IMG/VR virus record: IMGVR_UViG_3300008459_011050 | Location: 114,053 to 178,052 of that record | From: a virus | DNA length: 64,000 bases | Reading direction: 5' to 3' (one strand) | Part shown: positions 2,054 through 58,912 of the stretch, one piece after another | How the letters are laid out: every line of letters starts with the position of its first letter | Numbering within the stretch: position 1 is the first letter of the stretch | Program-made: the position numbers and the translations under genes | Notes under the pieces: model-generated | What the model saw: the letters and a program-made list of their open reading frames with translations, nothing else | Told to the model about the DNA's origin: nothing | Databases searched by the model: none

Positions 2054-2806
2054 ATGAAATTAACCTTTAGTTTGTTTTTTATTTTTCTTGTTACTTTAGT
2101 TAGATCTCAGACCAATAACTTCTCAATTGGTGGAAATTTAACCACAGGTAATCTATTAAGTTATGGTATAAATATTAGAGCAAATCTGAACACTAATCCT
2201 GAAAAATTAAACCAAATTGTATTTTCGCCAAGTTTTGATTATGGTAAGATTTCGGATCAGTCTGGTGAATTTCAATTAAGGAGAAAAGAAATACTAACTG
2301 TTCTAAATTATGAGAGGACAAAAAATAGATTTAAGTTTTATGTCTATAATGAATTCGAAAAATCATTTCTGAGGAAGATAAGGATAAGAGGTGCATTTGG
2401 TACAGGACTTTCGTATAGGATAGTAGAAAATGAAACTACCAATTTTGATGTGTCTCAGCTTATTTTGCCAGAATTTTTTCAGTCAAGTTTCACAAATAAA
2501 AGAGATAACTGGGCTTTAAGACTATCGACAAGGATACGATTATCCAAAAAATTTCCCAAGTATAGATATTCCTCACAATTATTGTTTCAACCAGCTGTTT
2601 ATACAGAACTAAGTGATGGTACTGAAGTTGCACCAAAAAATAATACGACAGTCAGGATTAATAATTCCTACGAGTTTGTATTATCAAAAAATTTGTCTAT
2701 AGGGTTCATGGGTGAAATGATCGTTCAAACATATACGAGTTATATCAATCCAACCGTTAAACCCTACGATACAAATTTAAATTTATTTATAAAGGGTAAT
2801 TTCTAA
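2054..2806 (+). CDS. DUF481-like outer-membrane beta-barrel protein
   Basis: 250 residues with a clear signal peptide (residues 1-19, ending LVRSQ) followed by alternating hydrophobic/polar strands and a terminal aromatic residue (GNF), as expected for an outer-membrane barrel. The start of the mature part (NNFSIGGNLTTGN) and the overall length resemble the DUF481/YdiY-like family. It is flanked by minus-strand genes and its stop overlaps the sigma gene stop by 4 bases. A phage-encoded barrel could alter the host surface during infection, for example by masking a receptor; that is inference. Family assignment is from pattern recognition only. Confidence 0.65.
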   Translation: MKLTFSLFFIFLVTLVRSQTNNFSIGGNLTTGNLLSYGINIRANLNTNPEKLNQIVFSPSFDYGKISDQSGEFQLRRKEILTVLNYERTKNRFKFYVYNEFEKSFLRKIRIRGAFGTGLSYRIVENETTNFDVSQLILPEFFQSSFTNKRDNWALRLSTRIRLSKKFPKYRYSSQLLFQPAVYTELSDGTEVAPKNNTTVRINNSYEFVLSKNLSIGFMGEMIVQTYTSYINPTVKPYDTNLNLFIKGNF

Positions 2807-3417
2807 AGATACGTTTCATCTAAGAAATCAAATTCCTTTTTGGTTTCGGAAATAAGGATTAATCTACCGTTTCTAATTTGAGATTTGATGGTAGATAGAT
2901 TTTTACCCAATTCATCAGCAATGTCTTTATAAGCCATCTTTTTGATTTCTCTCATTTCGATAACCTTCCTATATGGTTCTTTGAGGTTTTGGATATGTTT
3001 CTTCATGATCTCGGCTTTTCGGTCCGAAACGTCATGTTTATTATTTTCCGAAACTTCTTCTTGTATAAAGTCCTTTAGGGTTGTACCCTCCTCGTCGATT
3101 TCAATGTCGATGGATACATTCTTTTTTGAGAGTTTTATGTCTTGGAGAAGAATATTCCTTGCGATGGTGAATAACCACGTTGAAAATTGTGCCTTTTCTT
3201 TTTCATACTTGTCAATTTTTTCGAACGCTGTGAGGAATGATTCTGTAGTTACGTCTTCAGCTTTTTGGTGGTCTCCACACATTTTAGCCGTATAGTAAAT
3301 TAACTTTGGATAATACTTTTTGTAAAAGAAAGTAAAGTCACTACCTGTTCTTTCTTTGAATAGAACTTCTTGTTCTGAGAATGATTTGACTGCCGTTGAA
3401 TTGTACATATATTTCAT
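2803..3417 (-). CDS. RNA polymerase sigma factor, ECF-like (sigma-70 family)
   Basis: 204 residues with the two domains of a minimal sigma factor. Region 2 spans about residues 29-95 (FYKKYYPKLI, AEDVTTESFLTAFEK, FSTWLFTIARN) and region 4 about 145-195 (LKEPYRKVIEMRE, then the helix-turn-helix YKDIADELGKNLSTIKSQ). The linker at 100-135 is acidic, and no region 1.1 or 3 is evident. It would direct host core RNA polymerase to phage promoters. The recurrent TTAATATATAA element upstream of many genes here is the obvious candidate target, but that link is inferred. Its own upstream region contains GATATAAATA, a T4-late-like variant. ATG at 3417; M4 is an alternative start. Confidence 0.9.
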   Translation of the reverse strand: MKYMYNSTAVKSFSEQEVLFKERTGSDFTFFYKKYYPKLIYYTAKMCGDHQKAEDVTTESFLTAFEKIDKYEKEKAQFSTWLFTIARNILLQDIKLSKKNVSIDIEIDEEGTTLKDFIQEEVSENNKHDVSDRKAEIMKKHIQNLKEPYRKVIEMREIKKMAYKDIADELGKNLSTIKSQIRNGRLILISETKKEFDFLDETYL

Positions 3418-16780: not shown

Positions 16781-16786
16781 ATATTA

Positions 16787-16818
16787 CAAAAGTAAGTGAT
16801 TTAGGTTTCATTTACAAA
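16787..16818 (-). promoter_or_regulatory. Class I host-type promoter of the CoaE-like gene
   Basis: Minus strand TTTG, 20 bases, TACTTTTG; this matches the Bacteroidota -33/-7 consensus TTTG and TAnnTTTG. The ATG follows after 6 bases, predicting a leader of about 2-3 bases. Confidence 0.75.
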
Positions 16819-23607: not shown

Positions 23608-23608
23608 C

Positions 23609-26504: not shown

Positions 26505-27224
26505 TTATTTTTTTACTAACCACAAGTGACCAACCATTCCCATTTGGAATTTGTCAAAGTGTCCCATGGATTCAACTTTGTGGGATTTCTCATTTTTTGG
26601 AAATTTGATACCGGTTAATTTTTGTTTTCCGTAAATTCTTTTATCTCCATTACAGGTTTTACAAGGTGACCATCCAACCTGACCCTCTCCGTTACAGATC
26701 GTACAAGTTTTTCCAAATGGGTCTTTACCACTACCCTCACAAAAATCACATCCATCAGAACCATCAAATAGTTTCAATATATTTCCGAATTCATCTTTGA
26801 TTTCTATTTTTGATTTTGTGTCCTTACCATTCCCCTTACAATCTTTACAGACAACCCATCTATCATATTCTATACTTCCATCAAAGCGATCATCGATTTT
26901 CAACAAAATATTCAAATCATTCTGATTCCATTGGCTTTCGAATTTCTCATTGTCGTAAGCAACATTTAGATTTTCATACTCATTACTCAATAGTTCTTTA
27001 GTTTCGTCATATGAGTTTCCAAACCTACTTCTGACATCATATTGTTTTCTAGTTTCATCAACTAATACATCATACGATTCGGTAATTTCGGCAAATAATA
27101 TGGGGTCACCTCCTTTATCCGGATGGTGTGTGAATGAAAGCTTGTAATAGGCTTTCTTAATTTCTTTTTCTGATGATGTATTTGGAACACCTAAAATTCC
27201 GTAATAATTCTTATTGAAGTTCAT
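26505..27224 (-). CDS. dnaJ: DnaJ-like co-chaperone (J domain plus zinc-finger region)
   Basis: 239 residues. An N-terminal J domain (about 5-65) has the HPD motif in FTHHPDKGGDP. A cysteine-rich region follows with four CxxCxGxG-type elements: CKDCKGNG, CDFCEGSG, CTICNGEG and CKTCNGD. The C-terminal substrate-binding domains of full DnaJ (about 375 residues) are mostly missing, so it is a short form. The HPD loop implies stimulation of host DnaK, perhaps for virion folding. It is the last gene of the operon orf106-rpsU-dnaJ; its start overlaps the end of rpsU by 14 bases. Confidence 0.92.
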   Translation of the reverse strand: MNFNKNYYGILGVPNTSSEKEIKKAYYKLSFTHHPDKGGDPILFAEITESYDVLVDETRKQYDVRSRFGNSYDETKELLSNEYENLNVAYDNEKFESQWNQNDLNILLKIDDRFDGSIEYDRWVVCKDCKGNGKDTKSKIEIKDEFGNILKLFDGSDGCDFCEGSGKDPFGKTCTICNGEGQVGWSPCKTCNGDKRIYGKQKLTGIKFPKNEKSHKVESMGHFDKFQMGMVGHLWLVKK

Positions 27225-27405
27225 CTAGTTTACTTTGTCGCCACTTAGCTTTTTTAATTTCATTTCTCCTTTCAACAGATGGTTTTGTGAACTCCTTTCT
27301 GCGTCTCAGTTCCTTAGTAATTCCAATTTTATCAAACTTACGTTTGAACTTTTTCAAAGCTTTTTCAAGTCCATCTTTACCGCCTTGTACTTCAATTATA
27401 ATCAT
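27211..27405 (-). CDS. rpsU: Ribosomal protein bS21
   Basis: 64 residues, the normal S21 length, very basic. The conserved core is present: ALKKFKRKFDKIGITKELRRR followed by EFTKPSVERR. S21 binds the 30S platform next to the 3' end of 16S rRNA. In Bacteroidota ribosomes S21 takes part in hiding the anti-Shine-Dalgarno sequence, so a phage copy could change which mRNAs are translated. Phage S21 genes are known from large metagenomic phages. ATG at 27405 overlaps the TGA of the upstream small gene (ATGA), and the end overlaps dnaJ, so the three are translated together. Confidence 0.95.
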   Translation of the reverse strand: MIIIEVQGGKDGLEKALKKFKRKFDKIGITKELRRRKEFTKPSVERRNEIKKAKWRQSKLDELQ

Positions 27406-28570: not shown

Positions 28571-28574
28571 TCGT

Positions 28575-28586
28575 GATATATATTAA
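28575..28586 (-). promoter_or_regulatory. Class II promoter-like element
   Basis: Minus strand TTAATATATATC, 4 bases before the ATG at 28570. A very short leader is implied whichever base starts the transcript. Confidence 0.45.
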
Positions 28587-28589
28587 TAA

Positions 28590-29045: not shown

Positions 29046-29074
29046 AGTATCAATTATTTTATAAGTATTTATTA

Positions 29075-29085
29075 TTAATATATAT
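29075..29085. promoter_or_regulatory. Class II element between divergent genes
   Basis: TTAATATATAT lies 4 bases before the ATG at 29090 and 29 bases before the endolysin ATG on the other strand. It could drive either or both. Confidence 0.45.
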
Positions 29086-29089
29086 CATT

Positions 29090-29629: not shown

Positions 29630-31359
29630 TGTCCAACTCGGACCGATTTAGTGTCGACACTATCGTCCATCGATACTTCATTAATACTTGTAAATACATC
29701 CTTATTGATCGATAATATCCTATCAAAGATTTCTTGATTTAATATTGCGTGGTGTACTACAAAAATGTTAATCTTATAATCATTTGCGAATGATTTCAAA
29801 AGATTTAGAATTGATTCACAGGATTCGATGTCCATACTTGAAAATACTTCATCCAAAAAAAGAATGTTGATGTGTTTTTTTGTTCTTATGAGTTTCAGAT
29901 AAGCAATTAGTATACATAGATTGACTTTTTTAGTTTCACCAGTACTCAAACTATCGTGGTCAATTGTGTTACCAAATTGTTTAATTTCAGCAGTGAATGT
30001 TTCATCCAACTTAACTTGAAATGGTAATAACATCTTTTTGATATTCTCTTGAATGAAGTGGTTTATTGGTTTAATTATACCAGCAATGATTGATTTCTTC
30101 ACACCATCCTCACCGAATATTTTGGATAACTCCTTATAATACAATTCCTTTTCTTTACAAACAGTTTGGTTGTCAACGCTTGATGATTTCTTTTCTTCTA
30201 ACTCTGATATAGCTTGTTCAAACTCTTGAATGTTTACATTTGATTTACCAGTATCATTATCTTTCTGTTGTTGTAACTTGTCTATTTGTGATTTGTAATT
30301 TCTAAGAAGATACGTAATATCATCAAAAGATTTTTTAGTTTTATCAGATATTGTTTGAAGTTTTGACTGTTTTTCTCTTATCGACTTGATATTTGTTTCC
30401 AAAACCAATTTGATATCATCCAGAGACTTCTTTTTATCAATCAATGATTGTTTCAGACCAATAAAATGGTCATTAAGAAAATCAGTTCCACAAGTTGGAC
30501 ATTTACCGGATTCGTATAAATCAATGTCCTTCTGAGCTGATTTGATATCATGTCCAATTTTAATATATTGTTCTTTCTCCGTTTCAAGTTCTGATTTGAG
30601 TTCATCATCTTTTTGTTTAATCTTATCGACTTTTTCTTTTAACTGTTGATACTCACCTTTTCTTGATTCCATATCATTTTTGATTTCATCAATTTCGGAT
30701 TGTATATTTAACTTTTCCTTTTCGATGGCTTTTTCAATAGATTGTTTTATTCTTTCTATTGAAGAATTGAGTGTTGATATTTCTGAATCAAATTTAGCAT
30801 TTTGTAATTTATTTGTTTTAACCAAATCCTTCAAAATGCCATTCAATAAGTTGATGACTTCAAGATTGAATAACTTATCAAGTAAAAGTTGTTTTTCTTC
30901 ATTTGATAGACTAATAAAATTTTTGAAATCATTGATTGACATTGATATGAATGATTTGAATGTCTCAATATCCATACCAATATAGTTTTCGATCTTTTCA
31001 TCTATATTAGCTTTTCCAGCTCTATCATTTTCCAAACCATTTTCAATCAATTTCAAAACACTTGGACCAATACCTCTGATTACTTCTACTTCAGTACCAT
31101 TAGATAAAAATTTAATTCTATTTTGAAGTTCACCATTAATTCTATTTGGTAGGGTTCCAAGTGTAGCCCACTTTTTCTTTTTCATAGATTTGACCTTTCC
31201 ATAGAGAACATATTCAAAACTTTCAATGAAACTACTTTTACCGTTACCATTCGATCCAGTCAAAAGAATTAACTCTCCTTTATCAGAGTTTAGTTTTAAC
31301 GTTTGTTCGTTGTTTCCAAAACTTTTAAATCCACGGATCCCAATTTCTGATATTATCAT
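29614..31359 (-). CDS. gp46/Rad50/SbcC-like recombination endonuclease ATPase subunit
   Basis: 581 residues from ATG at 31359; the frame extends to a TTG at 31374 but the ATG starts exactly at the conserved core (MIISEIGIRGFKSFG). Walker A GSNGNGKSS lies at about 35-43, long coiled coils flank a zinc hook CPTC near 288, then the ABC signature SLSTGETKKVN and Walker B ILFLDEVFSSMD. This is the SMC-like ATPase that, with a gp47/Mre11 nuclease, resects DNA ends for recombination-dependent replication. The size matches T4 gp46 (560). No gp47 lies next to it; the metallophosphoesterase at 35717 is of a different type. Confidence 0.92.
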   Translation of the reverse strand: MIISEIGIRGFKSFGNNEQTLKLNSDKGELILLTGSNGNGKSSFIESFEYVLYGKVKSMKKKKWATLGTLPNRINGELQNRIKFLSNGTEVEVIRGIGPSVLKLIENGLENDRAGKANIDEKIENYIGMDIETFKSFISMSINDFKNFISLSNEEKQLLLDKLFNLEVINLLNGILKDLVKTNKLQNAKFDSEISTLNSSIERIKQSIEKAIEKEKLNIQSEIDEIKNDMESRKGEYQQLKEKVDKIKQKDDELKSELETEKEQYIKIGHDIKSAQKDIDLYESGKCPTCGTDFLNDHFIGLKQSLIDKKKSLDDIKLVLETNIKSIREKQSKLQTISDKTKKSFDDITYLLRNYKSQIDKLQQQKDNDTGKSNVNIQEFEQAISELEEKKSSSVDNQTVCKEKELYYKELSKIFGEDGVKKSIIAGIIKPINHFIQENIKKMLLPFQVKLDETFTAEIKQFGNTIDHDSLSTGETKKVNLCILIAYLKLIRTKKHINILFLDEVFSSMDIESCESILNLLKSFANDYKINIFVVHHAILNQEIFDRILSINKDVFTSINEVSMDDSVDTKSVRVGHYSVV

Positions 31360-31407
31360 ATTAAGTATACTCAAAATTAATCAAATGTTTGGGGGGATAA
31401 GTCTAAT

Positions 31408-31418
31408 TGATATATAAG
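31408..31418 (+). promoter_or_regulatory. Class II promoter-like element of the RuvC-like gene
   Basis: TGATATATAAG lies 17 bases before the GTG start at 31436. Confidence 0.4.
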
Positions 31419-31435
31419 AAAATCCTTAAAATTTT

Positions 31436-32125
31436 GTGAATTTCGTTGGTTTAGACCCTTCTCTGATTTCTACTGGTTTAGTTGTTAATGGTAAGTTATT
31501 TAACTATTGTAGAGAAAAAGATGCTATGAATAAAAGTGGATATAGTAAGTGGTTCAAATATTGTGAAGATAAAGTTACGTTTAGATTTATTGATTATAGA
31601 CAAACAGAAAGTTACTCAGAAGGTGAATTAATCAAATTGAAAGACTATGATAAAATCACCGACCAGATTATCAAAGATATAGAGGAGAACATTGATAAAT
31701 CAAAACCCACCAAGGTTGGTATTGAAGGATATTCATATTCTTCCGATGCGGGTGCTATTATTGACTTAGTAACTTTTTCTACCCTATTGAGAAAAAAACT
31801 TTATGATTACATTTCCAAAGATATTACTGTCTTCTCTCCATCAACTCTGAAACTTGAGTCTTGTAAATTGACTTATCCACCAATTAATGAGGGTAAGAAA
31901 AAAGAAAAATGGGTTTACAAAAATGCATATGGTATTAGTGGTGGTAACTTGACTAAACACGGTATGTTTATGTGTATAGTCGATAATAATGAAATCAAAG
32001 ATGATTGGTTGAACTTGTGTAGAACATTAAAAGATGATATAATGAATGCTAGTAAAGTCCCCAAGCCTTTTGAAGATCTTAACGATTCATTTTTATTGTA
32101 CCATATTTTAAAGAAAAATTTGTAA
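31436..32125 (+). CDS. RuvC/RNase H-fold nuclease-like protein, possible Holliday-junction resolvase
   Basis: 229 residues from a GTG start. The first ATG in frame is about 30 codons later and would delete the first motif, so GTG is chosen. FVGLDPSLISTGL at residues 3-15 carries the first acidic residue of an RNase H-like core; VGIEGYSYSSDAG near 100 gives the Glu; DLNDSFLLYHIL near the C-terminus gives a late Asp. That order fits RuvC-like resolvases, also proposed for large phages lacking endonuclease VII. The proximity of gp46-like and UvsX genes supports a role in recombination or packaging-related junction cleavage. The resolvase activity itself is inferred. Confidence 0.7.
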   Translation: MNFVGLDPSLISTGLVVNGKLFNYCREKDAMNKSGYSKWFKYCEDKVTFRFIDYRQTESYSEGELIKLKDYDKITDQIIKDIEENIDKSKPTKVGIEGYSYSSDAGAIIDLVTFSTLLRKKLYDYISKDITVFSPSTLKLESCKLTYPPINEGKKKEKWVYKNAYGISGGNLTKHGMFMCIVDNNEIKDDWLNLCRTLKDDIMNASKVPKPFEDLNDSFLLYHILKKNL

Positions 32126-32150
32126 AGTCACCTAAACTTTCATATCTTTG
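32119..32150 (+). promoter_or_regulatory. Class I host-type promoter, leaderless configuration
   Basis: TTTG, 20 bases, TATCTTTG, then TATT and ATG at 32155. Four bases separate the -7 element from the start codon, placing the expected transcription start at or next to the A of ATG. Confidence 0.8.
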
Positions 32151-32154
32151 TATT

Positions 32155-32559
32155 ATGAAAGTAGGACAGATATCACACAACGTAGCCCCCGATTATATTC
32201 TTGGTGGAAAGGCTTTTGTAACCTTTCAAAACTCACAGACTGGTAATCGTTTCACCTACAAAGTGGTAAAACACAAAGTTGACGATATTTATTTTGTTCA
32301 CGTATTGACTAACCCAGATGTGTATATGTTTTTGGGTACCATTATCAATTATGGTTTCAGGCACTCTAAAAAATCAAAAATTGATCGTGATGCTAGGTCG
32401 GTTATAGTTTTTGATTATGTATTCCACCATTTAGGTATGGGAACACTCAACACATCTATTGAAATTTTTCACGATGGTCGGTGTGGAAAGTGTGGTCGTC
32501 AGCTAACAGATCCAATTTCAGTAGAAACCGGCCTTGGACCTTATTGTAGAAAAAAATAA
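32155..32559 (+). CDS. DUF6011-like zinc-ribbon protein
   Basis: 134 residues. The C-terminal 30 residues (GRCGKCGRQLTDPISVETGLGPYC) match the DUF6011 motif, with Cys pairs likely binding zinc. The N-terminal 100 residues are beta-rich (VTFQNSQTGNRFTYKVVKHK). The function of the family is not established; members are common in phages and may bind nucleic acid. It carries a host-type promoter predicted to give a leaderless mRNA, so it is probably expressed early. The peptidase gene at 32561 starts one base after its stop. Confidence 0.8.
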   Translation: MKVGQISHNVAPDYILGGKAFVTFQNSQTGNRFTYKVVKHKVDDIYFVHVLTNPDVYMFLGTIINYGFRHSKKSKIDRDARSVIVFDYVFHHLGMGTLNTSIEIFHDGRCGKCGRQLTDPISVETGLGPYCRKK

Positions 32560-32560
32560 T

Positions 32561-33325
32561 ATGTATAATAAAATTTATGATTTTTGTAAAGTAAGAAATT
32601 ACGGCAACATTTATAAAAATGATACTAACCAACCTCCACCCAGAGTTGAGTTTCTTTTGAATCTTCTCGAAGAAGAGGGTGTTGATTATGAACTTGACAG
32701 ATTTGATTCAAACAATGGGTGGTCTGGTAAAGATTGTATTGGATATAATATCATTTTAAAGGGCAATTCCTCAAAAATGGTGGTTGCTCATCATGATGTA
32801 AATAATCATAAAATTGACAATGCGAATGATAACTCAGCATCTGTCATAAACGCCATAATGGTAAAGAAACTAAAACCACAAATCAATGTAGTTTTACTTG
32901 ATGGTGAGGAAGTTGGTGGCATTGGATCGAAAAGAGTTTCTGAACAAATAAATAGGGGACAGTTTGGACAGATAGATTGGGTTCTAAACTTGGAACTCAC
33001 AGGCCGTGGGGGAAAGTATTTCTTTATTGGGGATTACCCAGGTAAACTCACAGACCATATCAAATCAATCTTTGATTGTCCTGTCTATCAAACACCATAT
33101 AATGATTCAGTAACATTTAGAGTTCATGGTATTGATTCTGTTGTTATCAATCCCATCCCTCCATTGAATGAGGGTAGAACATCGACTGTGAAATGGGACG
33201 AGAATACATATCTAGATAATAGTATGTTGAGAAACTGTCATTCTGAAAGAGATTCTATTGACACAATTGATGTAGATGATATGAAGGAATTCGTTGAGGG
33301 GGTTGTACTCAGGATATTAGAATAA
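32561..33325 (+). CDS. M28-like zinc aminopeptidase-family protein
   Basis: 254 residues from ATG at 32561; an upstream TTG in frame would overlap the preceding gene. Co-catalytic zinc-site motifs are in order: VAHHDVN near 75-81, DNANDNSAS near 86-94, DGEEVGGIGS near 114-123 with the catalytic Glu, LELTGRGG near 150, and a late His in NCHSERDS near 232. This order matches M28/M42-type aminopeptidases and deacylases. It could recycle peptides or trim a modified amino group; the substrate is unknown. It shares the host-type promoter at 32119. Its end overlaps the lipoprotein gene on the other strand by 9 bases. Confidence 0.8.
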   Translation: MYNKIYDFCKVRNYGNIYKNDTNQPPPRVEFLLNLLEEEGVDYELDRFDSNNGWSGKDCIGYNIILKGNSSKMVVAHHDVNNHKIDNANDNSASVINAIMVKKLKPQINVVLLDGEEVGGIGSKRVSEQINRGQFGQIDWVLNLELTGRGGKYFFIGDYPGKLTDHIKSIFDCPVYQTPYNDSVTFRVHGIDSVVINPIPPLNEGRTSTVKWDENTYLDNSMLRNCHSERDSIDTIDVDDMKEFVEGVVLRILE

Positions 33326-33580
33326 CTTCTGTTCAAAACAATCAGTGTCTTTCCAGTAATTCCAAATAGTATCACCAATAGTATCTGTGATTATTATTGG
33401 TGATGGATTATCAATTATAGGATTTTCTCCACAAGAGACAATTTTGATCTTACTTTTCAAAGGATATCCGGGTATATCCTTATTAGTTGTTATCTCTATC
33501 TTTTGATAACAATCATAACATTTTTCCTTTTTACAGGCAATACATACCCACAAAACAAATAACACCATAAGAACCCTCAT
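33317..33580 (-). CDS. Small lipoprotein
   Basis: 87 residues. Residues 1-15 are hydrophobic and end in a lipobox-like CIA before Cys16, followed by KKEK, the typical start of Bacteroidota lipoproteins. The mature part holds further Cys (CYDCYQK, VSCGEN, TDCFEQK) that may form disulfides outside the cytoplasm. A phage lipoprotein of this size could block superinfection, as T5 Llp does; that is analogy only. The start codon lies in a 10-bp hairpin and a class II element is just upstream. Confidence 0.75.
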   Translation of the reverse strand: MRVLMVLFVLWVCIACKKEKCYDCYQKIEITTNKDIPGYPLKSKIKIVSCGENPIIDNPSPIIITDTIGDTIWNYWKDTDCFEQKLF

Positions 33581-33588
33581 GGTGTTAT
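33559..33588. repeat. Inverted repeat enclosing the lipoprotein start codon
   Basis: ATAACACCAT and ATGGTGTTAT form a 10-bp perfect stem with a 10-base loop. On the minus strand the initiating ATG is at the end of the first arm and a second in-frame ATG (Met5) lies in the other arm. It could regulate translation, or act as a plus-strand terminator because a T-rich stretch follows. Confidence 0.55.
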
Positions 33589-33594
33589 ATATTT
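33585..33594 (-). promoter_or_regulatory. Class II promoter-like element of the lipoprotein gene
   Basis: Minus strand AAATATATAA, 4 bases before the ATG at 33580; it overlaps the hairpin. Confidence 0.4.
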
Positions 33595-33987
33595 TTATTT
33601 ATTTTGAAATTTTATCACATTATCTAAATAACCTTGGATATTCATTTTGCCAACAGGATTTTGTGAATGGACTACATAGTCAGGTAATTTTTTATTATTA
33701 TCGATACAAAAATTACCCAACCATTTAGCACAATCATATCCAGTTTTTTCCATTGGGATAGCATCTAGAATCCTAGAGAAGTCCATAATATAATGTTCAT
33801 CAGCTAAGTCGTGATCGAATGAAATGAAATCTGGTAATCCATTTTCAGAAATCCAATTAATAAACTCATTATAAGTCCTTACGATAATCCAATCGTTTTC
33901 CCAATAAAATTTATTTAAGTGTGAGGGGACCAGACCATTCGCACAATCTTTTGGATTTCTTATATCGTCCAAGAATAACTTTTTCAT
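33595..33987 (-). CDS. cREC-type receiver-like domain protein (cyclic-phosphate processing receiver)
   Basis: 130 residues. The pattern LFLDDIRNP at the start, DFISFDHDLAD in the middle, GYDCAKWL and VVHSQNPVGKMNIQGYL at the end is that of the cREC receiver-like family, which is predicted to work with RNA-end-processing enzymes. It is usually a stand-alone phage or plasmid protein of about this length. A host-type promoter lies immediately upstream with 4 bases to the ATG, overlapping the end of uvsX. A ligase and a metallophosphoesterase under the same promoter class suggest an RNA-repair context; that link is inferred. Confidence 0.8.
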   Translation of the reverse strand: MKKLFLDDIRNPKDCANGLVPSHLNKFYWENDWIIVRTYNEFINWISENGLPDFISFDHDLADEHYIMDFSRILDAIPMEKTGYDCAKWLGNFCIDNNKKLPDYVVHSQNPVGKMNIQGYLDNVIKFQNK

Positions 33988-33991
33988 TCTA

Positions 33992-34023
33992 CAAAGATAA
34001 TTAAAAATTATTAATTAAACAAA
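33992..34023 (-). promoter_or_regulatory. Class I host-type promoter, leaderless configuration, overlapping the uvsX 3' end
   Basis: Minus strand TTTG, 20 bases, TATCTTTG, then TAGA and ATG at 33987. The -33 element lies inside the last codons of uvsX. Confidence 0.8.
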
Positions 34024-35234
34024 TCATCTGCTGATAGATCTTCTCTGAATTCATCATCAGAATTACCCATCAGATCATTGAGGTCCTTTTCAACTTCTTC
34101 AATTTCATCTAAAGATTTATATCTGAAGTAATCATTGACTATTGGTTCCATCTTCTTAAGAACCTCAGGTGTGAATACTTCCGGTGTGAATAGATTTTTC
34201 GTTGTTACGGATTTATCTAAGTGACTGATGTACCAACGAATACCGCCGGGATTAAAAGTCATTTCACCAGTTTTTTTATCTACTTCAACCTTACCTTGTG
34301 CGATGCCGATTTGGTTGAAATATTCTGGTCTACAAAAAGCATCAAGACCTGTGTATGGATTCATACCATGATTGAATGAAATATCAAATCTGATTTTCTT
34401 TGGTTTAGCGAGACGATTTTTTGCGGTTTTAAATAGTACTGTAATACCTGACTGTCCTAGATCCATATCATCTTCTTCACCAGTTTTTAGTTTTGACTTT
34501 GACATCATACCAATTACTGAAGCAGAGTAAACAAGGGATCTACCACCTTTGAGTACCTCTTGTGGAAACATATCTTGTGTCAGATAGGTATGATTACAAA
34601 CAATCATAGGGATATCCAAAAATCCAAGGTCAGTATTGATTGAACGGAATAGTGAACCAATAGCTTTAGCTTTAGTCATATCTTGTTTGATATCGCCTTT
34701 TAACAAATCAGCTTTTTCTTTATTAGAAGCCATCTGTCCAATTGAATCCAAAACAATCATAAGTGGTTGGATTTCATTCCCTTTGAGTTTCTCTTCTTTT
34801 AGAGAATCAAGTAATTGTGTAAGTGTGATATTTATATCTTCTACTTTATTTGATCTCACTAGAATGAATTTCTGTGGGTCTGAATCAATTCCATATTTTG
34901 AAATCTCATCCAATTCAACTGAATACTCAGTATCAATGTAAACAACACCATAACCTTCTTTTTGAGCATTTTTAGCTACAGAGTAAGCCAAAAATGATTT
35001 ACCAGTTCCGGATTCACCTGCAAAACACGTAATTCGGTTTGTTTGTACTCCACCTCCTAAAAGTCTTGAGGAAAGTGCTGCATCAAGTAGATACACACCT
35101 GTTGAAATGAATTTTTTTTCTTTCACTTTATCATCGATGATGATGGGCACAGTCTTAGCAATACTAGACATAAGTGCACCTACTTTACTGAATTCAAACT
35201 TTTTAGAGCCATTATCTTTCTTTTCTTTTGCCAT
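34011..35234 (-). CDS. uvsX: UvsX/RecA-like recombinase
   Basis: 407 residues, near T4 UvsX (391). Walker A GESGTGKS is at residues 73-80, Walker B-like PLMIVLDSIGQM near 156-167, and the core continues as VCNHTYLTQDMF and GGRSLVYSASVIG. The C-terminus is acidic (DDEFREDLSADDLFN), as in UvsX/RecA, where it modulates DNA binding. It forms filaments on single-stranded DNA and drives strand exchange in recombination-dependent replication, together with the gp46-like ATPase. The upstream region holds GATATAAATA, a variant of the class II element. Confidence 0.93.
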   Translation of the reverse strand: MAKEKKDNGSKKFEFSKVGALMSSIAKTVPIIIDDKVKEKKFISTGVYLLDAALSSRLLGGGVQTNRITCFAGESGTGKSFLAYSVAKNAQKEGYGVVYIDTEYSVELDEISKYGIDSDPQKFILVRSNKVEDINITLTQLLDSLKEEKLKGNEIQPLMIVLDSIGQMASNKEKADLLKGDIKQDMTKAKAIGSLFRSINTDLGFLDIPMIVCNHTYLTQDMFPQEVLKGGRSLVYSASVIGMMSKSKLKTGEEDDMDLGQSGITVLFKTAKNRLAKPKKIRFDISFNHGMNPYTGLDAFCRPEYFNQIGIAQGKVEVDKKTGEMTFNPGGIRWYISHLDKSVTTKNLFTPEVFTPEVLKKMEPIVNDYFRYKSLDEIEEVEKDLNDLMGNSDDEFREDLSADDLFN

Positions 35235-35288
35235 ATAAATAAAAATTAATTTAATATTTATATCAAAATCAAAAGTAAAAGATTTAAA

Positions 35289-35663
35289 TTATTGACCGAT
35301 TCTAAATGAATTTGTTTGACTTGTTCCCCCTATTTTATTTGTTCTTGTAATACCATCGCCACCAGGTACTTTATAAGTCATGTAGTCTATTTCACCACCA
35401 ATCAATTCGGGATTTCTTTTGAAATATTTGATAGCTTTATTTCTTAATTCTTCACCATATGCGTCCATGTCATCCGAAGATAAGTCTTTTGGGAATTTTT
35501 GACCTATTTTTTTAGCCAAATCTTCATATCTACCTTTAGTGCATAAACCATCGACATAATCTTGGATTTTAAGATCTAGCACTGGATTGAAATCTGGTAT
35601 CACTTCCCCACCATCGTCCACACCAGTTTGGTGAAACATTTCAAATTTTTTAATAAATTTCAT
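35289..35663 (-). CDS. Unknown protein with capsid-targeting-like N-terminus
   Basis: 124 residues, no family recognised. Starts MKFIKKFEMFHQTG, the clearest example of the Lys/Phe-Glu N-terminal pattern shared by several unknown proteins in this window. The middle is helical and charged; the C-terminus is Gly/Thr-rich (GGDGITRTNKIGGTSQTN). A class II element lies 5 bases upstream of the ATG. Confidence 0.65.
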   Translation of the reverse strand: MKFIKKFEMFHQTGVDDGGEVIPDFNPVLDLKIQDYVDGLCTKGRYEDLAKKIGQKFPKDLSSDDMDAYGEELRNKAIKYFKRNPELIGGEIDYMTYKVPGGDGITRTNKIGGTSQTNSFRIGQ

Positions 35664-35668
35664 ATTAA

Positions 35669-35679
35669 TTATATATTAA
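35669..35679 (-). promoter_or_regulatory. Class II promoter-like element
   Basis: Minus strand TTAATATATAA, an exact match, 5 bases before the ATG at 35663. Confidence 0.5.
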
Positions 35680-35681
35680 AC

Positions 35682-35712
35682 TTTGTTTTTGTAAAAGGTA
35701 GTATTACCTTTG
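35682..35712 (+). promoter_or_regulatory. Class I host-type promoter, leaderless configuration
   Basis: TTTG, 19 bases, TACCTTTG, then TACT and ATG at 35717. Confidence 0.8.
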
Positions 35713-35716
35713 TACT

Positions 35717-36319
35717 ATGAACATATGGTTTACATCAGATACGCACTTCGGACACACCAACATTGCTGGTCCAAGTATATCTGTTTGGAAAGATGGATTT
35801 AGAAACTTCAATTCTGTTCAAGAAATGAACGATGCTCTTATCCACAATATAAATAAGATAGTTGGTGAAGATGATATCCTTTACCACCTTGGTGATTGGA
35901 GCTTTGGTGGAGTTCATAATATCTACTATTTTAGGAAATCACTTATCTGTAAAAATATTCACCTAATTCTTGGTAACCACGACCAACATATCACAAATAA
36001 AGAAATCAAATTTCTTGATAGTTCATTCAACCCAATAGATTTGTTTAGTTCTGTTCAAGATGTTTTCACGGGAAAGATAGGTAAAAACTATTTTCACCTC
36101 TCACATTATTCCCACCAAGTTTGGCCAGGAAGTCATAAAAATTTTATACACCTATTTGGACATAGCCACGGAAGTCTAAAAGGTCTTGGTAAGTCTATGG
36201 ATGTTGGCGTTGATACTCACCCAGAATTCAGACCTTATCATATAAATGAAATTATCAAAATTATGGATAAGATACCTGTAAAATTTATTGATCACCACGA
36301 TGAAAGCACAAATGTTTGA
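35717..36319 (+). CDS. Calcineurin-like metallophosphoesterase
   Basis: 200 residues with all motifs of the metallophosphoesterase fold in order: SDTHFGH (residues 7-13), LGDWSFGG near 58-65, LGNHDQH near 85-91, LSHYSH near 120-125, and FGHSHG near 141-146. These place two metal ions for phosphodiester or phosphomonoester hydrolysis. The size and motif spacing fit the stand-alone phage type and not gp47/Mre11. The substrate is unknown; nucleotide or RNA 2',3'-cyclic phosphate ends are plausible. It is transcribed from a host-type promoter with 4 bases to the ATG. Confidence 0.9.
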   Translation: MNIWFTSDTHFGHTNIAGPSISVWKDGFRNFNSVQEMNDALIHNINKIVGEDDILYHLGDWSFGGVHNIYYFRKSLICKNIHLILGNHDQHITNKEIKFLDSSFNPIDLFSSVQDVFTGKIGKNYFHLSHYSHQVWPGSHKNFIHLFGHSHGSLKGLGKSMDVGVDTHPEFRPYHINEIIKIMDKIPVKFIDHHDESTNV

Positions 36320-36379
36320 AAATAAGCCAACTTTTATAAACTGATAAATATAACTGAAATTCAAAATAACTTAAATTAT

Positions 36380-36850
36380 ATGGCAAAAATACCTATGACC
36401 CGAGAAGGGTTTCAAAAATTAGAGCAAGAATTAAAGGATATGCGTGGTCCACAGTTGAGGGAACATATCCAAAATTTGGCAGAAGCAAAAGATAAAGGTG
36501 ACCTTTCAGAAAATGCTGAATATGATGTCGCTAAAACAGCTATTGATGATTTAAATAGAAAAATCAATAAACTTTCACAGAAGTTAGCAGATGCTGAAAT
36601 TATTGAAGGTATTATCGATGATGGTACAGTTCAACTACTTACTTGGGTTAAATTCAAAAATACTAAGAGTGGGGTTACGATCGAATATCGAATTGTGCCA
36701 GAAAATGAAATTGATATTAAATCTGGTAAAATCTCGCACCTAAGTCCTATTGGAAGTGCTCTAATGGGTAATCGAGTTGGAGATAAAGTAATTGCAGAAG
36801 TACCTATTGGTAAAATGGAACTTGAGATTTTGGAAATCAGAGTTAAGTAA
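36380..36850 (+). CDS. greA: Transcription elongation/cleavage factor GreA
   Basis: 156 residues, full length for GreA (about 158). The N-terminal coiled coil has the tip motif DLSENAEYD near 38-46, whose acidic residues enter the RNA polymerase secondary channel, and the C-terminal FKBP-like domain follows (VKFKNTKSGVTIEYRIV, ISHLSPIGSALMG). It rescues backtracked RNA polymerase. A phage copy could help transcription of very long late operons or alter initiation; that is inference. The next gene starts within its stop (TAATG), so it heads an operon ending before tRNA-Arg. Confidence 0.95.
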   Translation: MAKIPMTREGFQKLEQELKDMRGPQLREHIQNLAEAKDKGDLSENAEYDVAKTAIDDLNRKINKLSQKLADAEIIEGIIDDGTVQLLTWVKFKNTKSGVTIEYRIVPENEIDIKSGKISHLSPIGSALMGNRVGDKVIAEVPIGKMELEILEIRVK

Positions 36851-37122
36851 TGATTGGTCTTTACAAGGGTCATGTATTTCAAGGATCTAATAAGATGTGG
36901 CAAGAGTATAGAATTGTTCATCTTGGTAAGTGGGATGGGAGTGATGAAGTTTTTTTTACAACCTACCACCACGAATTTCCAAATGAGAGATTACAAATCT
37001 ATCTTCATAAATACAAACCTTTGTCAAGAACATTCAAAGCTAATATTGACCAGTATATGAAAAAAGATCCTTATTTTATTGAATTAAACAGAGAAGAAAA
37101 ATTAAACGATTTACTATCATGA
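36850..37122 (+). CDS. Unknown small protein downstream of greA
   Basis: 90 residues, beta-rich N-terminus (MIGLYKGHVFQGSNKMWQEY), helical C-terminus. No family recognised. Coupled to greA by a TAATG overlap and to the next gene by an ATGA overlap. An ORF in another frame over the same bases is taken as a shadow. Confidence 0.65.
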   Translation: MIGLYKGHVFQGSNKMWQEYRIVHLGKWDGSDEVFFTTYHHEFPNERLQIYLHKYKPLSRTFKANIDQYMKKDPYFIELNREEKLNDLLS

Positions 37123-37496
37123 TAAAAATAGAAGTTGACTGTATAGACGAAAAAATTGAACTCCTTGATAGGATTAAAATCCTACATAAGAAAATGAAAA
37201 AATCCCTAAATAAAGATGGGGATAAAATGTTTGATGAAGATGAACTTATAGATTTCCCATTCTATATTGATCCCTTTCATATTAAAGTAACAACAGAAGA
37301 ATCTATTCAAAAAATGATTAATAAGTTAATTGATGAATATTGGGAAAATGTTGACTTCGATCTTGGATATGAAAATGAAAAGTATTATGTTTGTCATAAG
37401 AAATCAAAACACGTAGTTGAACTGGACAAGGGTAGTACCTGGGACGACTATAGGGATGAAAGAATTAAATTGAAGAACTTTTTTGAAAGTATTTGA
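37119..37496 (+). CDS. Unknown small protein
   Basis: 125 residues, strongly charged (KILHKKMKKSLNKDGDKMFDEDELID), no family recognised. Third gene of the greA operon by ATGA overlap; tRNA-Arg begins 15 bases after its stop, so both may share a transcript ending at the terminator at 37589. Confidence 0.65.
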   Translation: MIKIEVDCIDEKIELLDRIKILHKKMKKSLNKDGDKMFDEDELIDFPFYIDPFHIKVTTEESIQKMINKLIDEYWENVDFDLGYENEKYYVCHKKSKHVVELDKGSTWDDYRDERIKLKNFFESI

Positions 37497-37511
37497 TATA
37501 AGAAAACTAAT

Positions 37512-37587
37512 GGTTCCGTAGCTCAGCCCGGATAGCAGCAACTCACTTCTAATGAGTAGGTCATAGGTTCGAATCCTATCGGAACTA
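37512..37587 (+). tRNA. tRNA-Arg (anticodon UCU)
   Basis: Cloverleaf by eye: acceptor GGTTCCG with CGGAACT (one G-U pair) and discriminator A; anticodon stem ACTCA/TGAGT with loop CTTCTAA, anticodon TCT after T33; T-arm ATAGG-TTCGAAT-CCTAT. The D-stem is short (GCT/AGC). CCA is not encoded. It reads AGA and AGG, the common Arg codons of this AT-rich genome. A terminator follows directly. Confidence 0.93.
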
Positions 37588-37588
37588 C

Positions 37589-37620
37589 AAAGGAACTCTA
37601 AATGAGTTCCTTTTTCTTTT
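37589..37620 (+). terminator. Rho-independent terminator after tRNA-Arg
   Basis: AAAGGAACTC pairs with GAGTTCCTTT around loop TAAAT, followed by T-rich TTCTTTT. It ends the greA-tRNA-Arg transcript. Confidence 0.88.
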
Positions 37621-37642
37621 CATTTATTTAATCCATAAATCT

Positions 37643-37753
37643 TGGGATTTTTGGTATGATTATCAAAATGATTTACATAGAATAAGAGAAGAAAAGATAA
37701 ATGAGATATTTGGTATAGGTAAGGAAACTTTAAAAGATATTTGGCCAGAGTAA
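37643..37753 (+). pseudogene. Possible remnant of a small ORF
   Basis: An open stretch without start codon ends at TAA 37751-37753. Its translation contains YQNDLHRIREEKINEI, which resembles YLQLQRDEKIDEIL at the end of the adjacent 54-residue gene. This may be a decayed duplicate. The stretch between tRNA-Arg and that gene otherwise holds only the terminator and a class I promoter. Confidence 0.3.
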
Positions 37754-37771
37754 AACTTTATATTACCTTTG
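37740..37771 (+). promoter_or_regulatory. Class I host-type promoter, leaderless configuration
   Basis: TTTG, 20 bases, TACCTTTG, then TATT and ATG at 37776. The transcript should also carry tRNA-Cys. Confidence 0.82.
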
Positions 37772-37775
37772 TATT

Positions 37776-37940
37776 ATGAATTCTGAACAATACCTCAACT
37801 ATCTACAAGAATCTCAACATATTGCACTTGAGTCCTATAATTACATAGGTGAAATGTATAATTCTTACATGACTAGTCAACTCTATGACGAATATCTTCA
37901 ACTTCAGAGGGATGAAAAGATTGATGAAATACTAAACTAA
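37776..37940 (+). CDS. Small 54-residue protein adjoining tRNA-Cys
   Basis: ATG at 37776 to TAA at 37938-37940, 54 residues (MNSEQYLNYLQESQ..., ending RDEKIDEILN), Tyr/Glu-rich and helical. It was called because it sits exactly behind a well-formed host-type promoter at the same 4-base distance as four longer genes. No family recognised. The first base of tRNA-Cys directly follows its stop, so the tRNA must be cut from the mRNA 3' end. Confidence 0.7.
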   Translation: MNSEQYLNYLQESQHIALESYNYIGEMYNSYMTSQLYDEYLQLQRDEKIDEILN

Positions 37941-38011
37941 GGTCCGTTGTCAGAGCGGTTATGTCGAGGACTGCAAATCCTTTTAGCCTGGTTCGACTCC
38001 AGGACGGACCT
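37941..38011 (+). tRNA. tRNA-Cys (anticodon GCA)
   Basis: Acceptor GGTCCGT/ACGGACC with discriminator T; anticodon stem AGGA/TCCT with loop CTGCAAA, anticodon GCA after T33; T-arm CCTGG-TTCGACT-CCAGG. CCA is not encoded. It decodes TGT and TGC. It may matter for the extremely Cys-rich gene at 62490. It converges on the glycosyltransferase gene ending at 38013 with a one-base gap. Confidence 0.92.
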
Positions 38012-38012
38012 C

Positions 38013-39122
38013 TTAATTTAATCTATCTACTGCAAACTGCAGATTTCCTCTAACCCTATCATAATAATGATGTGGTATTTTATTCTCTGTAAGTAATTGT
38101 TCACACGCTTTTTTGGATTCCTCGAAATAACCTGAGTAATAAGATATGATTGAAAATTCGTCGAGTATACCGTAATCATAAATCCAATCTTCGGAAAATA
38201 AACTATTTGATGGTTTAGTGATATTCAGAGCTTGTTTTCCGAAAATATATCCCATTTGATGTAGACCATGTATCCTACAATAATGTAATAAATGATAAAG
38301 ACACTCTGCTCTATTCGGGCAAGATTCGTGCCCCTTCAAATAATTAAAAATGATCTTTTCTGGTGGGTAATTCAACTCATTCATCAAATTTCCTACGTTA
38401 ACATAACTTATAAAAACTTCTTCATTCCAAAAACCCATTTCACCGCGCTTCAAATAGAATTCTAAAGATTCCTCACGTCTTTGAAGATCTCTTAGTGATT
38501 GTGCAAGATAAAATGTATATCTCGATTTGAACCACAAATCCTCTGTTTCATCTATGGCTTGTTTCAAAAGTATAACATCTTGTTCGAATTTATTACCACT
38601 CCTATTTCTATTGCTGTCTTGTATTGGTTGATTGTAAAAACCGTTAGCAGTTTTTCTTGTCTCAACTTCACCTGTTAGAAACTCATGAATAACACCCTCA
38701 TACCGATAATTTTTTTTATTAGAACTAATTTGTGGTCTCACATAGGTTATACCACCCATTTTTGTGGTGATATCATATAAATCAACATCCATAGTATTTT
38801 TAAATTCTGATACATCAAAATCCTCATCAAATATTAAAATTTCGTCAGCATCAATCATCAAAGCATAGTCTACATTTTGATGATCTCTCAATTTTTCCAA
38901 TGCTAAACTTCTGTTGTGTGCAAAATTTTTCCAAGGTTCTGAATATACAAATCCAGGTATTTGATTTTTGGTTAGCCAGTTATTTATAACTTCGGTTGTT
39001 TCATCTGTAGAACCAGTGTCTTGAATTATTACTGCGTCTATCAATGGCTTCACTGAATTCAAACATCGTTCCATGACGTGTGATTCATTTTTTACAATCA
39101 TGCATAAAGCTATTGTTTTCAT
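38013..39122 (-). CDS. Family 2 glycosyltransferase with C-terminal TPR-like region
   Basis: 369 residues. Standard GT2 start TIALCMIVKNESHVMERCLNS (broken here after conserved KNE), then IIQDTGSTDET near 33-43 and the metal-binding MIDADEI with Asp91/Asp93. The C-terminal half (about 190-360) has repeated helical pairs like TPRs (FYLAQSLRDLQRREESLEFYLKR). It would use a nucleotide sugar; the acceptor is unknown. It differs in architecture from the two-domain glycosyltransferase at 3546, so the window encodes two separate sugar-transfer enzymes. ATG at 39122, divergent from the ligase. Confidence 0.88.
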   Translation of the reverse strand: MKTIALCMIVKNESHVMERCLNSVKPLIDAVIIQDTGSTDETTEVINNWLTKNQIPGFVYSEPWKNFAHNRSLALEKLRDHQNVDYALMIDADEILIFDEDFDVSEFKNTMDVDLYDITTKMGGITYVRPQISSNKKNYRYEGVIHEFLTGEVETRKTANGFYNQPIQDSNRNRSGNKFEQDVILLKQAIDETEDLWFKSRYTFYLAQSLRDLQRREESLEFYLKRGEMGFWNEEVFISYVNVGNLMNELNYPPEKIIFNYLKGHESCPNRAECLYHLLHYCRIHGLHQMGYIFGKQALNITKPSNSLFSEDWIYDYGILDEFSIISYYSGYFEESKKACEQLLTENKIPHHYYDRVRGNLQFAVDRLN

Positions 39123-39143
39123 TCAGATATTTTTTTATATTTG
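39112..39143 (+). promoter_or_regulatory. Class I host-type promoter, leaderless configuration
   Basis: ATTG (one mismatch), 20 bases, TATATTTG, then TAGT and ATG at 39148. It overlaps the start of the divergent glycosyltransferase gene. Confidence 0.7.
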
Positions 39144-39147
39144 TAGT

Positions 39148-39774
39148 ATGATTAAATATCAAAGTTTCCAATATATTTATCCACCTAGACCCAAAAACCC
39201 CATACCTTCTACTGATTTGAATATTTGGGATAATGGTATGATGTTGGCTCAACCTAAAATCAATGGATCAAATTGTACCATCTATACAAATGGTAAAGAT
39301 ATTTATGTTTATAATCGTCATGGACAAAGACTTACTGGTTTTGATATTCCCAAAGAAGAAATATTGAATTTATATCGCGGTAACGGGTGGTGGGTTTTGA
39401 ATGGTGAGTATACAAATAAATCTAAACAAAATGAAAATGGAAGTGTTTTTTCACACAAATTCTGTTTGTTTGATATTCTTGTTAAAAATGGTGAGTATTT
39501 AATTGGTACAACATTTCAACAAAGAGTGGATATGATGTTAGAACTTTATGGTAGTCCCAAAGATTACATTAGTCAAATAACTGAAAATACTTTCGTTATC
39601 AAATCTTTCTATAATGATTTCACCACAATATTCAATGACTTATCAAAAATTGATATGATTGAGGGTTTAGTTCTAAAAAGAAAGTCAGCTAAACTTGAAA
39701 CTGGGACGAGTGAAAACAATAATTCAAAAAGTCAGATCAAATCTAGGAAAGCTACAAAAAATTATAAGTATTAA
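39148..39774 (+). CDS. Minimal ATP-dependent nucleic-acid ligase (nucleotidyltransferase superfamily)
   Basis: 208 residues from ATG at 39148; the frame is open upstream to 39073 but the promoter is 4 bases before 39148. Motif I is KING with the adenylated Lys37, then VYNRHGQR, motif III-like LNGEYTNKS, FDILV, and motif IV EGLVLKRK near 172-179; Lys residues in SQIKSRKATKNY may be motif V. Only the nucleotidyltransferase core is present, as in small RNA ligases. It would seal nicks in RNA or DNA; the RNA side is favoured by the size and by neighbouring tRNAs, but not proven. Its stop overlaps the convergent gene by 4 bases. Confidence 0.83.
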   Translation: MIKYQSFQYIYPPRPKNPIPSTDLNIWDNGMMLAQPKINGSNCTIYTNGKDIYVYNRHGQRLTGFDIPKEEILNLYRGNGWWVLNGEYTNKSKQNENGSVFSHKFCLFDILVKNGEYLIGTTFQQRVDMMLELYGSPKDYISQITENTFVIKSFYNDFTTIFNDLSKIDMIEGLVLKRKSAKLETGTSENNNSKSQIKSRKATKNYKY

Positions 39775-40346: not shown

Positions 40347-40349
40347 AGA

Positions 40350-40359
40350 TTATATATTA
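40350..40359 (-). promoter_or_regulatory. Class II promoter-like element
   Basis: Minus strand TAATATATAA, 3 bases before the ATG at 40346. Confidence 0.45.
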
Positions 40360-42975: not shown

Positions 42976-42980
42976 AAGGG

Positions 42981-42990
42981 TATATATTAA
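42981..42990 (-). promoter_or_regulatory. Class II promoter-like element
   Basis: Minus strand TTAATATATA, 5 bases before the ATG at 42975. Confidence 0.48.
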
Positions 42991-43948: not shown

Positions 43949-43980
43949 TTTGGCATTTCATTAATAAAGTATTATCTTTG
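43949..43980 (+). promoter_or_regulatory. Class I host-type promoter with leader
   Basis: TTTG, 20 bases, TATCTTTG. Unlike the other class I sites it is followed by a leader of about 33 bases before the ATG at 44017, containing AAGGAACG. Confidence 0.8.
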
Positions 43981-44016
43981 TATTAAGAAAAGGAACGCAC
44001 ATTTTAAAACCAAAAT

Positions 44017-45397: not shown

Positions 45398-45401
45398 ACC
45401 T

Positions 45402-45412
45402 TTATATATTAA
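45402..45412. promoter_or_regulatory. Single class II element in a 23-base divergent gap
   Basis: TTATATATTAA on plus, TTAATATATAA on minus. It is the only recognisable element between the ATGs at 45397 (minus) and 45421 (plus). Confidence 0.5.
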
Positions 45413-53035: not shown

Positions 53036-53046
53036 TTAATATATAA
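53036..53046 (+). promoter_or_regulatory. Class II promoter-like element
   Basis: Exact TTAATATATAA, 3 bases before the ATG at 53050 and 2 bases after the stop of the giant gene. Confidence 0.5.
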
Positions 53047-53049
53047 CTT

Positions 53050-56895: not shown

Positions 56896-56899
56896 GTTA

Positions 56900-56949
56900 C
56901 TATTTAAGTTTTATATTTTAATATATAAATTTAAAATAAACTTAAATAG
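56900..56949. repeat. 12-bp inverted repeat flanking a class II promoter
   Basis: CTATTTAAGTTT at 56900-56911 and its complement AAACTTAAATAG at 56938-56949 enclose TTAATATATAA; the ATG at 56950 follows the right arm directly. Possible operator or leader hairpin. Confidence 0.6.
56918..56928 (+). promoter_or_regulatory. Class II promoter-like element
   Basis: Exact TTAATATATAA, 21 bases before the ATG at 56950, inside the inverted repeat. Confidence 0.52.
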
Positions 56950-58896: not shown

Positions 58897-58912
58897 AAAA
58901 TATTTATAAAAG

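Follow-up and report, generated by a model that had tools for sequence, protein, structure and literature searches.

Predicted leaderless genes and two promoter families in huge phages with predicted Bacteroidota hosts

Genes and promoters at the locus

The window analysed here is a 64,000-base stretch of virus DNA, corresponding to bases 114053-178052 of a 178,052-base record, and it contains, among other features (Table 1), five genes with a promoter of the Bacteroidota type immediately upstream of the start codon. We term these host-type promoters (TTTG/TAHHTTTG) class A and those with the box TTAATATATA class B, and define the gap as the number of bases between the end of a box and the ATG. 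A sequence-only reading of this DNA had listed the five sites, each with a -33 element, a spacing of 19-20 bases, TAnnTTTG, four bases and ATG; all of them lie where it had placed them, with TATT, TAGA, TACT, TATT and TAGT as the four-base stretches and ATTG as the -33 element of the fifth. It was equally accurate regarding a related site with six bases (minus strand, ATG at 16780) and one at 43949 with a normal leader, 36 bases from the box to the ATG at 44017. Gene starts were assigned by a simple longest-ORF rule. At the ligase gene the longest ORF opens at 39073 and the promoter sits between the ATGs at 39073 and 39148; most of its best orthologs begin at the 39148 codon.

The predicted leaderless forms in the window belong to smaller auxiliary genes, e.g. 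those for nucleic-acid repair, a phosphoesterase and small unknown proteins, and leadered class B boxes precede several of the largest ORFs (5482, 18487, 54214 and 56950). Very long ORFs (648-1852 aa) without a match in PHROGs occupy 18487-26503, 47476-53034 and 54214-62449. Among the predicted leaderless genes of the window (33595-39774) and of phage record G000 (30926-32020) are some for RNA/DNA ligase-like proteins, one for a cREC_REC domain and one for a ligase resembling T4 Rnl1. This content, together with the location of the window genes near tRNA genes, suggests an RNA-repair set under class A control.

The UvsX protein of the window phage is 57-77% identical to those of LR756502, LR745206 and LR756504 (phages of 634-642 kb) and up to 88% identical to those of IMG/VR records of up to 476 kb. 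Given the size of these relatives, the 178,052-base record is probably a piece of a much larger genome. Judged by size, the three named phages are the largest Mahaphage genomes (PMC7162821), and the window phage would be Mahaphage-like, a placement made through UvsX identity only. The Mahaphage clade is predicted to replicate in Bacteroidetes (PMC7162821), and searches with the bS21 of the window phage recovered bacterial matches almost exclusively from Bacteroidota genomes. A Bacteroidota host for this phage and its relatives is a prediction only.

Table 1. Positions of promoters, boxes and genes in the window, and of the repeats in LR756504.1
Feature	Positions	Strand	Remarks
Phage sigma factor, sigma region 2 and region 4 only	2803..3417	-	candidate reader of class B
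Class A promoter, gap 6	16781..16818	-	ATG at 16780 (CoaE-like gene)
Phage-encoded ribosomal protein bS21	27211..27405	-	
Class B box TTAATATATA	28571..28587	-	gap 6, ATG 28570
Class B box TTAATATATA	29073..29089	+	gap 5 (last TATATA read), ATG 29090
Class A promoter TTTG-N20-TATCTTTG-TATT	32119..32154	+	ATG at 32155
Predicted leaderless gene, 134 aa	32155..32559	+	DUF6011/phrog_20259
Class B box AATATATA	33581..33593	-	gap 5, ATG 33580
Predicted leaderless gene, 130 aa	33595..33987	-	cREC_REC (cyclic-phosphate processing receiver domain)
Class A promoter TTTG-N20-TATCTTTG-TAGA	33988..34023	-	overlaps 3' end of UvsX gene
Class B box TTTAATATA	35664..35678	-	gap 6, ATG 35663
Class A promoter TTTG-N19-TACCTTTG-TACT	35682..35716	+	
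Predicted leaderless gene, 200 aa	35717..36319	+	phosphoesterase (phrog_547)
Class A promoter TTTG-N20-TACCTTTG-TATT	37740..37775	+	
Predicted leaderless gene, 54 aa	37776..37940	+	unknown; flanked by two tRNA genes
Class A promoter ATTG-N20-TATATTTG-TAGT	39112..39147	+	
Predicted leaderless gene, 208 aa	39148..39774	+	ATP-dependent RNA/DNA ligase family
Class B box AATATATA	40347..40358	-	gap 4, ATG 40346
Class B box TTAATATATA	42976..42990	-	gap 5, ATG 42975
Class A promoter with leader, gap 36	43949..44016	+	ATG at 44017
Class B box TTAATATATA	45398..45412	-	gap 5, ATG 45397
Class B box TTAATATATA	53036..53049	+	gap 4, ATG 53050
Inverted-repeat sites of LR756504.1	near 2406, 13595, 15520, 16920, 19032, 19575, 34060, 49820, 71811, 396921		

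Class A promoters at a fixed distance from the ATG

With a loose gap the pattern is matched five times in the window, against 0.40 matches in dinucleotide shuffles, none of 100 of which reached five. The search of the rest of the record that had been proposed earlier recovered the strict pattern, TTTG-N18-21-TAHHTTTG-N4-ATG, seven times in the whole 178,052 bases where 0.15 matches are expected (third-order Markov null; maximum of 1 in 40 simulations), and the reversed pattern gave no strict match. All seven ATGs start an ORF of at least 40 codons. The histogram of distances over the record has a single-base peak at 4 (7 sites, with 0-2 at other distances), and when three of the four -33 bases are allowed to suffice, distance 4 is represented by 14 sites and the others mostly by 0-4 in the 178-kb record. 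The inference that such uniform spacing reflects selection rather than chance is supported by the shuffles, the Markov null and the single-base peak.

The same placement recurs in a pooled set of 2209 genes from eight related, Mahaphage-like huge phages, in which the TAHHTTTG box lies exactly four bases from the ATG in 71 genes and at neighboring gaps in 1-11 (6 genes at gap 3 and 9 at gap 5). Those class A sites with gap 4 and a long ORF have 66 ATG, two GTG and no TTG start codons, and the logo of the class displays the -33 TTTG, an A+T stretch, TAtcTTTGTAtt and a T at -1. The sites thereby possess the TAHHTTTG -7 box and the -33 TTTG at a spacing of 19-21 bases that mark Bacteroidota sigma-ABfr promoters, with ATTG in one of the five sites of the window. 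G000, G001, G002 and LR756504 have a strong peak at gap 4; in G003 and G010 it is weak, and G016 and LR756502, where TAHHTTTG occurs mostly with leaders, have almost none. A single promoter cassette copied around the genome is disfavored, as the boxes alone are conserved and the spacers differ. Nor does the arrangement appear to be common to Bacteroidota phages at large, since gap-4 sites are only sporadic in Lak-A1 and in seven other phages.

The promoter of the Bacteroidota primary sigma factor (sigma-ABfr) consists of TTTG at -33 and TAnnTTTG at -7 (PMC6847099, PMC9723704, PMC7366714), refined in Flavobacterium johnsoniae to an H at both variable places of the box (PMC6847099). Median leaders in such hosts are 24-32 bases long (PMC6847099, PMC9723704, PMC7366714); 87% of F. 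johnsoniae leaders exceed 10 bases (PMC6847099), and 4-6% of the mRNAs of Bacteroides thetaiotaomicron and Flavobacterium psychrophilum are leaderless or have very short leaders of <10 bases (PMC7366714, PMC9723704). We compared the phages with host sites drawn from 800 kb of four Bacteroidota genomes (G017, G018, G020 and G022). Among sites with a fair -33 element, gap 4 accounts for 52 of 155 in phages and 0 of 56 in hosts (p ~1e-8); without any demand on the -33 element the figures are 57 of 271 and 8 of 218 (p 5.5e-9). The strict pattern has a density of ~0.8 per million bases in 15 whole host genomes and of 25-82 in the four strongest phage records, a ratio that is indicative only because base composition differs between the sets. 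In these four records two thirds of the full-consensus sites near an ORF have gaps of 0-9. The hosts use the box mostly with leaders and show a small gap-4 excess (5/821 genes), in line with their few leaderless mRNAs; with so few genes at gap 4, a mere carry-over of host practice is disfavored. A full -33 TTTG combined with TAHHTTTG is itself rare in hosts (23 sites in 800 kb) and frequent in phages (139 in ~850 kb).

A second promoter class

A blind search for words at a fixed distance from start codons recovered class A together with a second motif, TTAATATATA. The sequence-only reading is supported in its prediction of host-type leaderless promoters, but it had missed this second, apparently phage-specific class with the same placement. 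The pooled phage DNA contains the ten-base TTAATATATA 279 times, with 257 copies within 60 bases of an ORF start; 1.5 Mb of host DNA contains it only seven times. Its gaps are bimodal, with 121 genes at 4-8, four at 9-15 and 123 at 16-28; in a hold-out set of 23 relatives outside the discovery set the corresponding numbers are 47, 2 and 40. No -35 element was found at the TTAATATATA sites of the pooled phages. The class peaks at gaps 4, 5 and 6, and a part of it would therefore have a leader of one or two bases. Only the leadered hump is present in a 50-kb piece of Lak-A1.

A small protein with sigma regions 2 and 4 is encoded by all 11 clade records searched, Lak-A1 included. It may be a factor of the T4 gp55 type, although the nearest solved relatives of the window protein in the PDB are ECF sigma factors. 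Class B is probably read by this phage sigma factor, a link that is inferred.

Position of the predicted transcription start

Placement of a promoter at gap 4 leaves no room for a leader. RNA-seq in F. johnsoniae revealed four or five bases between the box and the start of transcription (PMC6847099), from which we predict a start at the A of the ATG or one base downstream. Of the earlier proposal of a start at or one base before the A, the A itself is therefore retained, and the alternative position is possibly one base downstream instead of one before. Independent, if indirect, evidence comes from leadered class B genes, where the A-rich leader sets in sharply five bases past the box (79% A, against 50% one base earlier). 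This points to the fifth base as +1, a position taken by the A of the ATG when the gap is 4. Agreement is weaker in leadered class A promoters (67% A at the same place). The start of transcription may vary by one or two bases, and the AUG would be lost if it fell a single base too late. There is a strong preference for ATG over GTG and TTG at gap 4, with weak start codons almost absent.

The intrinsic terminators of upstream genes provide a further constraint. Of 270 leaderless-type genes, 16 have a terminator that ends 11-20 bases upstream of the ATG; among 440 leadered genes there is none (p 1.4e-7 for this contrast), and among 1492 others there are 5. One such terminator has a T-run that passes directly into TACCTTTG-TATT-ATG. 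With a terminator in that position, transcription from the gene's own promoter can begin only at about the ATG.

Orthologs retain the arrangement. Gap 4 is preserved at the phosphoesterase gene (35717) in 10 relatives, which have 56-87% protein identity and spacers without evident similarity, and at the ligase gene (39148) in five; the promoter of the 33987 gene has a gap of 4-5 in two close relatives. Gene 32155 has the same gap in two close relatives and is leadered in distant ones. Among reciprocal best hits with <75% identity, leaderless class A stays leaderless class A in 45% (base 6%) and leaderless class B remains so in 57% (base 13%), with a change from leaderless to leadered class B in 11% (base 19%). 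As judged from these alignments, the leaderless arrangement is inherited gene by gene. It is not indispensable, since the distant orthologs of 32155, and G016 and W01, use leadered class A promoters.

Proposed model and alternative explanations

We put a probability of roughly 85% on the reading that the five sites are Bacteroidota primary-sigma promoters, placed by selection such that the A of the ATG is the first base transcribed and the mRNAs are leaderless, as part of a design with two promoter families. All the evidence that sequence can provide, i.e. spacing, null models, hosts, orthologs and ORF starts, agrees with the leaderless phage mRNAs proposed earlier. Leaderless transcription nevertheless remains a strong prediction, as mapped 5' ends are lacking and the host is itself a prediction. 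Under this model class A would be read by the host polymerase with its primary sigma factor, probably early (the timing is inferred), and class B, without a -35 element, by the polymerase with the phage sigma factor, an assignment that is likewise inferred. Each family would come in two arrangements, leaderless (0 to ~3 bases) or leadered (~12-24 bases, A-rich in class B). In class B there would be almost nothing between the two and leaders of 5-11 bases would be avoided, suggesting that the ribosome starts at a 5'-terminal AUG or behind an A-rich leader of normal length, and poorly in between. A 5'-terminal AUG is most likely translated through direct ribosome binding, as inferred from other leaderless mRNAs.

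Coincidence or base composition would be an alternative in a genome of 68% A+T, as both boxes are A+T-rich, yet the shuffle and Markov nulls, the reversed-sequence, host and other-phage controls, the orthologs and the hold-out set refute it, and we give it practically no credence. It is also conceivable, if improbable, that the boxes serve translation, as an AT-rich or Kozak-like context for initiation, with transcription beginning further upstream: initiation in Bacteroidota prefers A at -3 and -6 (PMC6847099), and class A genes have A at -3 in 70% of cases. Such a context would not account for a -33 TTTG at promoter spacing, and class A places T at -8 to -6 and G at -5; moreover, TA after TTTG is also frequent in the leadered promoters of the same phages. 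Boxes are nearly absent within tight operons (an upstream gap of <10 bases is seen in 3-4% of genes with boxes against 52% of other genes), terminators finish 11-20 bases ahead of the ATG, and a translation signal would not be expected to leave a zone empty and then to produce a second hump at 16-28.

A transcription start inside the ATG or a few bases beyond it, with a later in-frame ATG as the true start codon or an untranslated RNA as the product, is a very improbable reading. The uncertainty of one to two bases in start sites, and the five-base spacing that is also common in F. johnsoniae, leave some space for it; against it, orthologs align from the gap-4 methionine, 7/7 strict sites of the record begin long ORFs, and ATG is strongly preferred over TTG and GTG at gap 4.

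All eight records tested encode a bS21 protein, and others have proposed that phage bS21 redirects the ribosomes of Bacteroidetes towards phage messages (PMC9723584). A doubtful extension of the leaderless reading, offered as a speculation, is that the phage bS21 enters the ribosome and favors a 5'-terminal AUG, such that membership of the two leaderless classes gives phage genes priority in translation, in a host that rarely uses leaderless mRNA. If this were true, these phages would shift the preference of the host ribosome to messages with a short leader or none. The leaderless classes offer a concrete partner question for the phage-encoded bS21.

Relation to known systems

Late promoters of the T4 type have the box TATAAATA, no -35 element and the gp55 sigma factor, with gp33 and the sliding clamp, and T4 late mRNAs have Shine-Dalgarno leaders. 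Class B is similar in its A+T-only box at about -13 to -5, in its lack of a -35 element and in its occurrence in phages that have their own sigma factor and a UvsX like that of T4. It differs in that its box is TTAATATATA, which does not conform to TATAAATA, and in the resemblance of the phage sigma factor to ECF sigma factors. The cI message of lambda is a single leaderless phage mRNA; the genes described here similarly have the start codon at the predicted 5' end, but they form a conserved genome-wide class of tens of genes rather than one. Class A shares its boxes and spacing, and the H at the variable places, with the sigma-ABfr promoters of Bacteroidota, and departs from those of hosts in its frequent leaderless placement and much stronger -33 element. 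Zheng et al. 2011 reported leaderless genes with a -10 box ~12 bases upstream, in 1 of 37 Bacteroidetes/Chlorobi genomes with TANNNT (PMC3160421). The phage boxes likewise start ~12 bases before the start codon, but they are TAHHTTTG and TTAATATATA and belong to two promoter systems of phages.

No report of leaderless genes in Bacteroidota phages was found in the open-access literature searched, with subscription papers and preprints outside the scope. Neither leaderless mRNAs nor the TAnnTTTG promoter are novel in themselves; what appears new is that a phage clade combines them systematically, with a second class and an avoided zone. Bacteroidota ribosomes do without Shine-Dalgarno pairing, their choice of start site is an open question, and most mRNAs of these bacteria have leaders. 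In a whole clade of the largest known phages, leaderless starts appear to be a standard option, with two unrelated promoter systems and a near-forbidden leader length of ~5-11 bases. The tens of leaderless and leadered genes per phage are natural test sets for initiation by such ribosomes, and they yield accurate promoter and start-codon rules for the annotation of huge phages.

In LR756504.1 (W03) the leaderless class A promoters have a common inverted repeat, TTTGTAT-N4-ATACAAA, overlapping the -33 element (Table 1), which looks like an operator common to a regulon.
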